Assembly (NCBI RefSeq): GCF_006658505.1
Contig: NZ_VFUZ01000010.1
Coordinates: 1 to 64,000, forward strand
Direction: 5' to 3'
From: Mesorhizobium sp. B2-4-15
GTDB lineage: Bacteria; Pseudomonadota; Alphaproteobacteria; Rhizobiales; Rhizobiaceae
DNA length: 64,000 nucleotides
Each line of letters opens with the position of its first letter. Positions within the stretch are counted from its first letter, which is position 1. Below are positions 5,481 to 42,591 of the stretch, piece after piece. Under the pieces are notes generated by a model. That model saw only the letters and a list, made by a program, of their open reading frames with translations. It was not told the origin of the DNA and made no database searches. Made by a program: the position numbers and the translations under genes.

Positions 5481-5662
5481 CGCCGCCCCTCACCTGCCTG
5501 CCGGCATCCTCTTCCCGTATAGGGACGGGGAGAGGGGCGCTGTCGTCACCGATTTCGCCAATCGTCAGGGTTACAGGAGGGGCGCCGGCGTTGCGGCCAG
5601 CCCCTTCTCCCCGTCTCTATACGGGGAGAAATGCCCGGCAGGGCGATGAGGGGCAGCGCGAC
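5481..5662. repeat. Dispersed CTCCCCGTA family repeat, copy 1
   Basis: An element of about 180 bp with outer arms CGCCCCTCA and TGAGGGGC and inner arms TTCCCGTATAGGGACGGGGAG and CTCCCCGTCTCTATACGGGG-type stems. Its middle reads ATTTCGCCAATCGTCAGGGTT. Copies lie at 15241-15412 (inverted) and, translated, at 35308-35477 within ftsY; a related form is at 42431-42591. It fills the gap between leuC and the methyltransferase gene. Confidence 0.85.
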
Positions 5663-15240: not shown

Positions 15241-15412
15241 CGCCCCTCATTGCCCTGCCGGGCATTTCTCCCCGTAAACGGGGAGAAAGAGGCTGGTGCC
15301 AGCGCCGGCGCTTCTTCCTTGCAACGCTGACAATTGGCGAAACCGCCGACGACAGCGTCCTTCTCCCCGTTCACGGGAAGAAGATGGCGGCAGCCAGATG
15401 AGGGGCAGCGCG
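15241..15412. repeat. Dispersed CTCCCCGTA family repeat, copy 2
   Basis: Same element as 5481-5662, read in the other direction. Outer arms CGCCCCTCAT and ATGAGGGGC, inner arms TTCTCCCCGTAAACGGGGAG and CTCCCCGTTCACGGGAAG, and the middle ACAATTGGCGAAACCG. It fills most of the 350-bp gap between the Pro/Ala-rich gene and the 3' end of lpdA; nothing else is evident in the gap. Confidence 0.85.
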
Positions 15413-34585: not shown

Positions 34586-36655
34586 ATGGCTGGTTTTTTC
34601 AAGAAGATATTTTCGTTCGGCAAGAAAGAGGTTGTCGAGGAGCGGATCGACGAGACCGCCCCGCTGCCGCCGATCAAATGGGAAGCATTGGACGCGCTAA
34701 AGCCGGCGGCCGAGCAGGCCGTGCCGGAATTCTTGAAGCGCGAGGAGGCGCAGCCAACAGCAGAGACCGCGGCGGCAAGCTCGGGCGAGCTCGCTCCCCA
34801 CCCTCCCCTCGATGGGGAGGGTCGACGCGAAGCGGCGGGGTGGGGTGATAGCGCCGGCGTTGGCGCCGATCACCCCCACCCCCGAGCCGCGCTCGGGACC
34901 TCCCCCATCAAGGGGGAGGTAAAGGACGCGTCCCCGCTGGCGCCTGTCGAGGAGCCGGCACCCGAGCCCATTCCGACTATCCCACCGGCGCCGGAGCCGA
35001 CGGTTCCGTCCGAGCCCGAAATCCAGCCTGAGCCTGCTCCGGCCGAAGAACCGCAGCCGGTCGAACCCGCCCCGAAGCCACCGGCGCCCGAAATACCCGC
35101 CGAAGAGCCAGCGCCGCCAGAAACCCCCGACGTGCCGGTGGTGCCGGAACGCCTCCCGGAACCTGCGCCAGGGGAAATTCCGGCACCTGAACGGCCAGGG
35201 ATCGCGCCGGAACCCGAGGAACTGCCAGAGCCAGCGCCCGCCGAAGTGCCGGCACCGGTCGAGACGCCGTCGGCGATCCCGTCAGCAAGGCTTCCCCCGG
35301 AAGTCAGCGCCGCCCCTCATCCGCCTGCCGGCACCTTCTCCCCGTATAGGAACGGGGAGAAGGGCGCTGATCGCGACGCCGGAACCCCTGTTGCTGATAC
35401 CGAAGAAGAAGCCTCGACGCTGACGCCCCCCTCTCCCCGTACTTTACGGGGAGAGGGTAAGGGTGAGGGGCGGCGCCAACCTGCGGAAAGTTCCGCACCA
35501 ACCGCCGAAGCTTCGCCGACGATTGCCGCCCCACCAGCGGAAATCGCGCCTCCCCTTCGCCAACCATCCCCGGTCGAAGCACAGCCTGTCCTTGCCGAGA
35601 TCGCGCCTGAACCACAGCCGGTCCCGCCACCAGCCCTACAACCGGCATCGGAACCGAAACCCGCCCAGGGCAAGGTAACTGTCTCCAAAAAGGTCGAGCA
35701 GAAGGCCGAGCCGGTGAAAGCGCCGGAGCCGGCGCCGCGACGTTCCTGGTTCCAGCGCATGCGGGACGGGCTTGCCCGCTCGTCGCGCGAACTTACCGGC
35801 AACATCGCCGGCGTCTTCACTCGGCGCAAGCTTGACGAGGACACGCTGCAGGATCTGGAGGATGTGCTGATCCGCGCCGACCTCGGCATGGAGACGGCGC
35901 TGCGCGTCACCGATGCGCTGGCTTCCAGCCGTTATGGCAAGGATGTCTCCGACACCGAAGTGCGCGCCATCATGGCGGCCGAGGTCGAGAAGATGCTGAC
36001 ACCCGTCGCCTTGCCGCTGGAGCTCGATCTCTCGCACAAGCCGCATGTCGTCCTGGTGGTCGGCGTCAACGGCACCGGCAAGACCACCACCATCGGCAAG
36101 CTGGCGGCGAAACTGACCGATGGCGGCCTGTCGGTGATGCTGGCCGCCGGCGACACGTTCCGCGCCGCGGCCATCGAACAGCTGAAGATCTGGGGCGAGC
36201 GGACGAAATCGCCGGTCATCGCCTCGAAGCTTGGCGCCGACGCCGCCGGCCTCGCCTATGACGCCTTCGAGAAGGCCAAGGAGGCGGGTTCAGACGTGCT
36301 GATCATCGACACCGCCGGCCGCCTGCAGAACAAAACCGAACTGATGGCCGAGCTGGAAAAGATCGTGCGCGTGCTCGGCAAGCTCGATCCCGAAGCACCG
36401 CACACCGTGCTGCAGACGGTCGACGCCACCACCGGCCAGAACGCGCTCAACCAGGTCGAGATCTTCCGCAATGTCGCCGGCGTCAACGGCCTGGTGATGA
36501 CCAAGCTGGACGGCACGGCGCGCGGCGGTATTCTGGTGGCGATCGCGGCAAAGCACAAATTGCCGGTCTATTTCATCGGCGTCGGCGAACAGGTCGACGA
36601 CCTCGAACCTTTCTCGGCAAGCGAATTCGCCAGGGCGATCGCTGGAGTGGCCTGA
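34586..36655 (+). CDS. ftsY: Signal recognition particle receptor FtsY with repeat-expanded acidic domain
   Basis: A 689-residue FtsY, long for the family (E. coli 497). Residues 1-385 form a low-complexity Pro/Glu/Ala A domain; the four-helix N domain starts near 388 (WFQRMRDGLARSSRELTG) and the GTPase follows: G1 GVNGTGKTTT at about 493, DTFRAAAIEQ, DTAGR at about 575, TKLDGTARGG at about 639. It docks SRP-ribosome complexes at the membrane. Two dispersed repeats are translated in frame in the A domain: residues about 70-112 (34795-34921) and about 241-298 (35308-35477), reading PHPPLDGEGRREAAG and PHPPAGTFSPYRNGEKG. The N and G domains are intact, so the protein is probably functional. Confidence 0.96.
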   Translation: MAGFFKKIFSFGKKEVVEERIDETAPLPPIKWEALDALKPAAEQAVPEFLKREEAQPTAETAAASSGELAPHPPLDGEGRREAAGWGDSAGVGADHPHPRAALGTSPIKGEVKDASPLAPVEEPAPEPIPTIPPAPEPTVPSEPEIQPEPAPAEEPQPVEPAPKPPAPEIPAEEPAPPETPDVPVVPERLPEPAPGEIPAPERPGIAPEPEELPEPAPAEVPAPVETPSAIPSARLPPEVSAAPHPPAGTFSPYRNGEKGADRDAGTPVADTEEEASTLTPPSPRTLRGEGKGEGRRQPAESSAPTAEASPTIAAPPAEIAPPLRQPSPVEAQPVLAEIAPEPQPVPPPALQPASEPKPAQGKVTVSKKVEQKAEPVKAPEPAPRRSWFQRMRDGLARSSRELTGNIAGVFTRRKLDEDTLQDLEDVLIRADLGMETALRVTDALASSRYGKDVSDTEVRAIMAAEVEKMLTPVALPLELDLSHKPHVVLVVGVNGTGKTTTIGKLAAKLTDGGLSVMLAAGDTFRAAAIEQLKIWGERTKSPVIASKLGADAAGLAYDAFEKAKEAGSDVLIIDTAGRLQNKTELMAELEKIVRVLGKLDPEAPHTVLQTVDATTGQNALNQVEIFRNVAGVNGLVMTKLDGTARGGILVAIAAKHKLPVYFIGVGEQVDDLEPFSASEFARAIAGVA
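34795..34921. repeat. Inverted-pair dispersed repeat inside ftsY (CTCCCC-ATCGAGGGG type)
   Basis: Two halves face each other: CCCCACCCTCCCCTCGATGG with GGCGGGGTGGGGTGA, then TCACCCCCACCCCCGAGCC with ACCTCCCCCATCAAGGGGG. A GCGCCGGCGTTGGCGCC palindrome is at the centre. It is open in the ftsY frame and adds about 42 codons. Confidence 0.75.
35308..35477. repeat. Dispersed CTCCCCGTA family repeat, copy 3, inside ftsY
   Basis: Same element as 5481-5662 and 15241-15412: CGCCCCTCATCCGCCTGCCG, TTCTCCCCGTATAGGAACGG at the left, CTCCCCGTACTTTACGGGG and GAGGGGCGGCGCC at the right. Length 170 bp and in frame with ftsY, adding about 57 codons. Confidence 0.85.
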
Positions 36656-42430: not shown

Positions 42431-42591
42431 TCACACCCCCCTCTGTCCTTCCGGACATCTCCCCCGCAAGGGGGGAGATTGGCAGCTTCGATGGGAGTAT
42501 TCTTTCTGCAGCGTTAGCGATTGGCGAAAGCAGAGATGACAGCCGATCTCCCCCCTTGCGGGGGAGATGCCCGGCAGGGCAGAGGGGGGCG
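42431..42591. repeat. Dispersed repeat between ccmA and ccmB
   Basis: Outer arms CACCCCCCTCTG and CAGAGGGGGGCG; inner arms ATCTCCCCCGCAAGGGGGGAG and ATCTCCCCCCTTGCGGGGGAG; middle GTTAGCGATTGGCGAAAGC. The TTGGCGAA middle and the GCCCGGCAGGG tail relate it to the CTCCCCGTA family. It lies within an operon that is usually tightly packed. Confidence 0.8.

Follow-up and report, generated by a model that had tools for sequence, protein, structure and literature searches.

Palindromic, MITE-like sequences probably read in frame within the A domain of FtsY in Mesorhizobium

Palindromic elements lying in frame within many conserved genes are known chiefly from Rickettsia and Wolbachia, which are intracellular bacteria with small genomes. 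RIME, CIR, and Bru-RS are intergenic palindromes of Rhizobiales or Caulobacter. The CIR elements of Caulobacter and Brucella were reported as non-intragenic, with stop codons in all six frames (PMC2229807). Reviews (PMC10969869, PMC2229807) describe the palindromic elements of Rickettsia (RPE; Ogata et al. 2000, 2002) as several families that occur both between genes and in frame within conserved genes, and translation and activity were demonstrated for one host protein, guanylate kinase (PMC2229807, PMC10969869). ERIC/RU-1, Correia, and the QMITE of Coxiella are small non-autonomous inverted-repeat elements with open frames, sometimes fused to genes (PMC10969869, PMC2229807). Our literature search, outside of which most subscription journals lie, returned neither an account of the elements described below in Mesorhizobium nor one of DUF559 genes with palindromic arms.

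We analyzed a 64-kb stretch of the genome of Mesorhizobium sp. B2-4-15 (hereafter the window), which contains the gene ftsY with two unusual segments, S1 and S2, in the region encoding the A domain (Table 1). The FtsY of E. coli has 497 amino acids, and the excess of the protein encoded here is thus 192 codons, in agreement with the first-pass annotation of the window, which gave about 190. Around 100 of these codons belong to S1 and S2, the remainder being Pro/Glu-rich A domain. Residues 403-685 match the SRP54_N and SRP54 GTPase domains of Pfam, and the N and G domains (NG) are intact, as had been proposed. Each of the two segments is a palindrome that stays open when read in the frame of ftsY, again as first described, and their codons would be translated as part of FtsY.

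Table 1. Location of ftsY, its inserts, and related elements. Plain positions refer to the window; the others give genome, contig, and position, with locus labels in parentheses.
Feature	Location	Strand	Remarks
ftsY coding sequence, SRP receptor, 689 aa	34586..36655	+	NCBIfam TIGR00064, E 6e-95; Pfam SRP54, SRP54_N
A domain, 384 codons, Pro/Glu-rich	34586..35737	+	carries S1 and S2
FtsY N and G domains	35738..36652	+	intact, strong conservation, N/S ratio 0.076
S1 element, 126 bp = 42 codons, at site I	34796..34921	+	palindromic; PHPPLDGEGRREAAGWGDSAGVGADHPHPRAALGTSPIKGEV
S2 element, 170 bp	35308..35477	+	translated as AAPHPPAGTFSPYRNGEKG...TLTPPSPRTLRGEGKGEGRRQ; blastn to 5481-5662, 15241-15412
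Element A, S2 family	5481..5662	not assigned	intergenic copy
Element B, S2 family	15241..15412	not assigned	intergenic copy
Element C, separate third family	42431..42591	not assigned	intergenic
glyS (GlyRS beta), in-frame element	G000:C12:170527-170670 (L235, L327)		relatives L328-L356
pcrA/uvrD loop, T element	G000:C5:81990-82094 (L229)		
pcrA/uvrD, same loop, S1-like element	G120:C1:2780949-2781066 (L210)		
Pyruvate dehydrogenase E2 (pdhC) linkers	G000:C1:296994-297252 (L226)		two in-frame T elements
T elements in cobN (two places), xdhC, uvrB, hyuA	G000:C16:49758-49895 (L015); C45:179446-179638 (L014); C3:28008-28145 (L224); C5:139548-139679 (L223)		
DUF559 loci bracketed by arms	G000:C12:168640-169175 (L439); C10:5440-5985 (L441); C44:8545 region (L437); L442-L469		

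The two segments had been treated as one type of element, with copies at A and B and a relative at C. Searches by blastn within the window gave a different picture. S2 matches element A (73% over 193 bp, E 3e-21) and element B (83% over 63 bp) far above chance, whereas S1 has no second copy in the 64 kb and matches none of the three elements; element C is a third family, sharing arms of around 50 bp at 90% identity with an in-frame element of glyS. The proposed matches therefore hold for S2 and fail for S1, and these results rule out a single family comprising both. The three elements do lie between coding frames, as had been stated. A repeat search of the whole genome, which had been recommended, identified 79 matching pieces for S2, 19 matches for S1, mostly partial (half-length), and, for a further family that we call T, 15 matches in one genome. 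In copy number and in size (about 100-170 bp), S2, T, and S1 thus resemble the multi-copy palindromic repeats of the RPE type. Because S1, T, and C have arm modules in common, the families are mosaics. The small elements consist of arms of around 50 bp in inverted order with no gene within, a hallmark of MITEs. The peptides of S1, S2, and T matched no NCBIfam or Pfam family, even at an E-value of 1, and hence we do not assign the elements to an RPE family. Along ftsY, S1 and S2 included, no Rfam model scored above its threshold; the only matches were sub-threshold chance ones to microRNAs. No target-site duplication was visible in the comparisons of filled and empty sites of glyS or ftsY.

To describe the distribution of the inserts across the genus, we located FtsY in 145 of 147 Mesorhizobium genomes and read the DNA encoding the A domain in 144. 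In genes with an identifiable start, the A domain varies in length between 159 and 384 residues. Of the 144 genes, 57 carry S1, with 85 copies in total (84 besides the one studied here), and 87 lack it. Copies occupy around three places: site I near the FtsY N terminus, site IIa within S2 and following 'SPYRDGEKEEAP', and site IIb following 'AEIAPEPEAxPTP', closer to the NG domain. The alignment of relatives that had been suggested includes a near relative (L102) that has S2 and an empty S1 site with both flanks conserved. S2 is found at the same position in much of Mesorhizobium, and its insertion is therefore old. In intact ftsY genes, every copy of S1 has the same orientation and is read in the same frame; apparent shifts of frame among the tabulated copies mostly reflect a single-base effect of normalizing the copy ends. 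Although most copies are open in four of the six frames of the S1 consensus, ftsY always uses one, which fits copying within ftsY better than repeated independent landing. When S1 was searched for in the 147 genomes (E 1e-22), 55 had matches, and all full-length copies with at least 85% identity were in ftsY. The remaining matches were weaker ftsY copies, a locus at 81-83% in eight genomes, which lies inside the helicase gene pcrA/uvrD where we read it (G120), and single weaker copies, for example one at 84% in G124. The near confinement of ftsY-type S1 to ftsY suggests that it is resident in this gene.

The frame of the A domain is broken in six ftsY genes (L054, L066, L076, L096, L126, L132), some of them in single-contig genomes, and in four of the six the break falls within S1. 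These breaks may be sequencing errors, slippage, or the mark of an NG-only FtsY, and perhaps S1 is not always harmless. Programmed frameshifting was considered and set aside: the four breaks within S1 are small indels, and we judged the breaks to be sequencing errors or slippage. Separately, the A domain of L192 (G031) has a stretch of N inside a Glu-Pro repeat, where the frame cannot be judged.

Several genes carry junctions that are the products expected from unequal exchange between repeats. L121 and L097 each contain one S1, flanked on the left as at site I and on the right as at site II, and have an A domain of 159 residues. In an alignment with L170, where both copies of S1 are present, L121 lacks the approximately 585 bp between them, in frame; the junctions of L097 are the same, as judged from the flanks. 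L180 contains three copies of S1 and two nearly identical versions of the unit between them; its middle copy is flanked on the left as at site II and on the right as at site I. Remnants, for example 'PNPPLDGEVK' (L063), resemble internal deletions between arms. Parsimony on the NG tree requires a minimum of 23 changes for site I, compared with a mean of 34 after shuffling, and of 36 for site II, the same as the shuffled mean (36), so that site II has no detectable phylogenetic order; these counts should be read with caution, as the tree is a gene tree made from ftsY itself and may be affected by recombination.

We then asked what selection acts on the inserts, using 33 full-length copies of S1 and the NG regions of the same genomes. 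The entropy of S1 at the three codon positions is nearly flat (0.27/0.24/0.29), i.e., there is no codon rhythm. The ratio of nonsynonymous to synonymous changes relative to expectation (N/S) is 0.63 in S1, against 0.076 in NG, and 0.86 in the left half of S2. Synonymous divergence from the consensus is 0.085 in S1 and 0.198 in NG. Hence, S1 is not constrained as a protein, nor are its individual copies as diverged as the silent sites of ftsY, and the peptides of S1 and S2 would be under little selection. The identity of S1 between species is around 0.89, almost independently of NG divergence (Mantel tests, r 0.08 and p 0.1 for site I, r 0.27 for site II), and identity between sites (0.887) nearly equals that within sites. 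This star-like pattern could alternatively result from constraint on DNA or RNA. The S1 arms are nearly invariant between species, the consensus folds at -92 kcal/mol, and one position of the stem shows perfect compensation from G-C to A-T (22 vs 11 copies). We nevertheless rejected RNA structure as the selected feature of S1, since overall covariation is only slightly above that of shuffles. The first-pass annotation had named, as evidence against its reading, the joint presence of both segments in all relatives, codon conservation of the protein type, and a lack of intergenic copies elsewhere; this is not what we found.

Elements in frame are not restricted to ftsY, and the parallel with Rickettsia initially drawn from this gene extends to others of the same genome. 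Elements of the T family ('SPLEGEMSAKPTEGV...PVEPTPPGGFAATLPSRGR') lie in frame in hyuA, uvrB, xdhC, pdhC (twice), pcrA/uvrD, glyS, and cobN, hosts that we confirmed through the Pfam domains of their proteins, and S2 lies in frame within a fused xanthine dehydrogenase (XDH) gene. Counting ftsY, nine or more conserved genes of this genome have such inserts. Among the hosts other than ftsY, we looked for empty orthologues of glyS and pcrA. For glyS, 27 species were read: 12 are filled ('VASSISPLEGEM...DISPSRGEITALA'), 14 are empty, with 'VGADPALA' as their short form, and the remaining species retains a remnant. As with RPE, there are thus in-frame inserts in unrelated conserved genes, with empty orthologues observed for glyS. 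When aligned with the solved structures of GlyRS beta and UvrD, the inserts fall between conserved blocks, and in UvrD a gap of four residues (238-241 of 3lfu) corresponds to around 58 residues. Structured enzymes such as GlyS and PcrA/UvrD thus also carry elements, in loops, and the A domain is not unique as a host. The pcrA loop has T-type elements in seven species, a variant in four, and S1-type elements in others. Unrelated inserts of 45-84 residues occupy this loop in further species. A helicase-like protein without a Pfam match also has an S1-like element in frame, close to its C terminus (G000:C1:136987-137127, L003). In other genera of the family, the A domain of FtsY carries further such peptides, among them 'SPSPLRGGSIGEADRGGV...TPSGPSDHLPLKGGEE' in one to several copies (L299, L307, L309, L313) and 'PPSPRERGEGEDEGQR...SGPSDHLLPAGGEKEA' (L321, L322). 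With unrelated palindromic families in the FtsY of several genera, the A domain has repeatedly served as host.

The arms of the small elements also occur around genes of the DUF559 family. We examined 33 DUF559 loci from this genome and 14 relatives, some of which may be orthologous to one another, and found inverted repeats bracketing the gene in at least 15, compared with 2 of 300 for control windows drawn from different loci; L441 is a sixteenth arm-bracketed locus. These arms match S1 (L439, L463), T (L441), S2 (L453, L462, L464, L465), or C (L469, L452). Arms of S1 and T type are oriented as in the small elements (G000:C12:168736, C10:5527), whereas those of S2 and C type are reversed. 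The DUF559 locus on C12 contains a stop codon. That arms of small elements bracket these genes makes DUF559 a candidate mobilizer in trans, and DUF559 endonucleases may thus mobilize the small elements. In this respect the loci recall pairs of autonomous and non-autonomous elements, with S1- and T-type arms flanking DUF559 in the orientation of the small elements; they differ from such pairs in the reversed arms of the other two types and in the enzyme, as DUF559 is, to our knowledge, not an established transposase.

The likeness to RPE is considerable: palindromes of 100-170 bp, in several families, both intergenic and in frame within conserved genes. The sequence comparisons support the reading that the Mesorhizobium elements behave like RPE, and extend the interpretation first made for ftsY. 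Compared with RPE, the sequences and mosaic arms differ, the hosts are free-living with large genomes, the families repeatedly occupy one domain (FtsY A), the S1 family is almost confined to one gene, within which it recombines, and the arms additionally bracket DUF559 genes. The elements share with ERIC/RU-1, Correia, and QMITE the non-autonomous inverted-repeat structure and the open frames; they differ from these in that no target-site duplication was seen, and in that S1 recurs genus-wide at few places of ftsY. To RIME, CIR, and Bru-RS they are likened as palindromic repeats by description only.

We consider it probable that two families of short palindromic, MITE-like elements left S1 and S2 as remnants, which are read in FtsY, and that ftsY-type S1 is a resident of the gene that recombines within it. 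This reading draws on the in-frame state of the inserts, their presence and absence, the recombinant junctions, the missing codon rhythm, and the related inserts elsewhere, all visible in the sequences, which catch neither the insertion step nor an excision. Two short families would have inserted into the A domain and persisted since their sequence is open in the needed frame and the domain tolerates changes of length; we infer both this tolerance and the original mechanism of insertion. S2 would have entered early in Mesorhizobium and been partially deleted since. S1 would derive from a dispersed mosaic family whose ftsY type turned resident, moving from place to place in ftsY, and probably from one species to another, through homologous recombination that adds or removes A-domain segments in frame. 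If instead the A domain were hit again and again from a dispersed genomic pool, one would understand the many intergenic copies of S2, the different families with several copies each in the FtsY of other genera, and the pcrA loop with its T-type elements in some species and S1-type in others. However, ftsY-type S1 has almost no dispersed pool in 147 genomes and keeps its orientation and frame at all sites, so that repeated landing is unlikely for S1, and we regard repeated fresh insertion as an unlikely account. The idea of the A domain as a landing site thus stands for the entire domain and several families, and not in its simple form for S1.

The near-invariant arms, the fold, and the compensated stem position of S1 could also be taken to mean that the inserts are functional, with a peptide tuning the contact of FtsY with membrane or translocon, or mRNA hairpins pausing translation for targeting. 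Such a role sits poorly with the absence of S1 from most ftsY regions, the almost complete lack of codon-level constraint, the covariation barely over shuffles, and the deletion of A-domain segments by recombination, and we find it quite improbable. We give almost no credence to a chance resemblance or an assembly artefact, in which GC-rich Pro/Glu coding would mimic palindromic repeats; the A domain is of low complexity and its frame is broken in six genomes, but DNA matches in the window reach E 3e-21, and the 85 homologous copies of S1 come from independent assemblies, single-contig genomes among them. Beyond the preferred reading of S1 and S2 as remnants of two families, a broader picture is offered tentatively, as one we lean somewhat against: mosaic palindromes across the genomes of Mesorhizobium and related genera, moved by arm-bracketed DUF559 endonucleases, may habitually come to rest, in frame, within the loops and linkers of conserved proteins, with the FtsY A domain as a recurrent site for several families, where the elements would keep remodelling an essential protein in frame.

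The inserts account for part of the variation in length of the FtsY A domain. A phenomenon best known from Rickettsia would thus also shape the proteins of free-living soil bacteria. The presence of elements in at least nine conserved genes (ftsY, glyS, pcrA, pyruvate dehydrogenase E2, and others) of a rhizobium with a large genome indicates that genome decay is not the source of this process. DUF559 provides a named candidate enzyme family for the movement of the elements, and around 147 species, many of them culturable, are available for testing their gain, loss, and tolerance.
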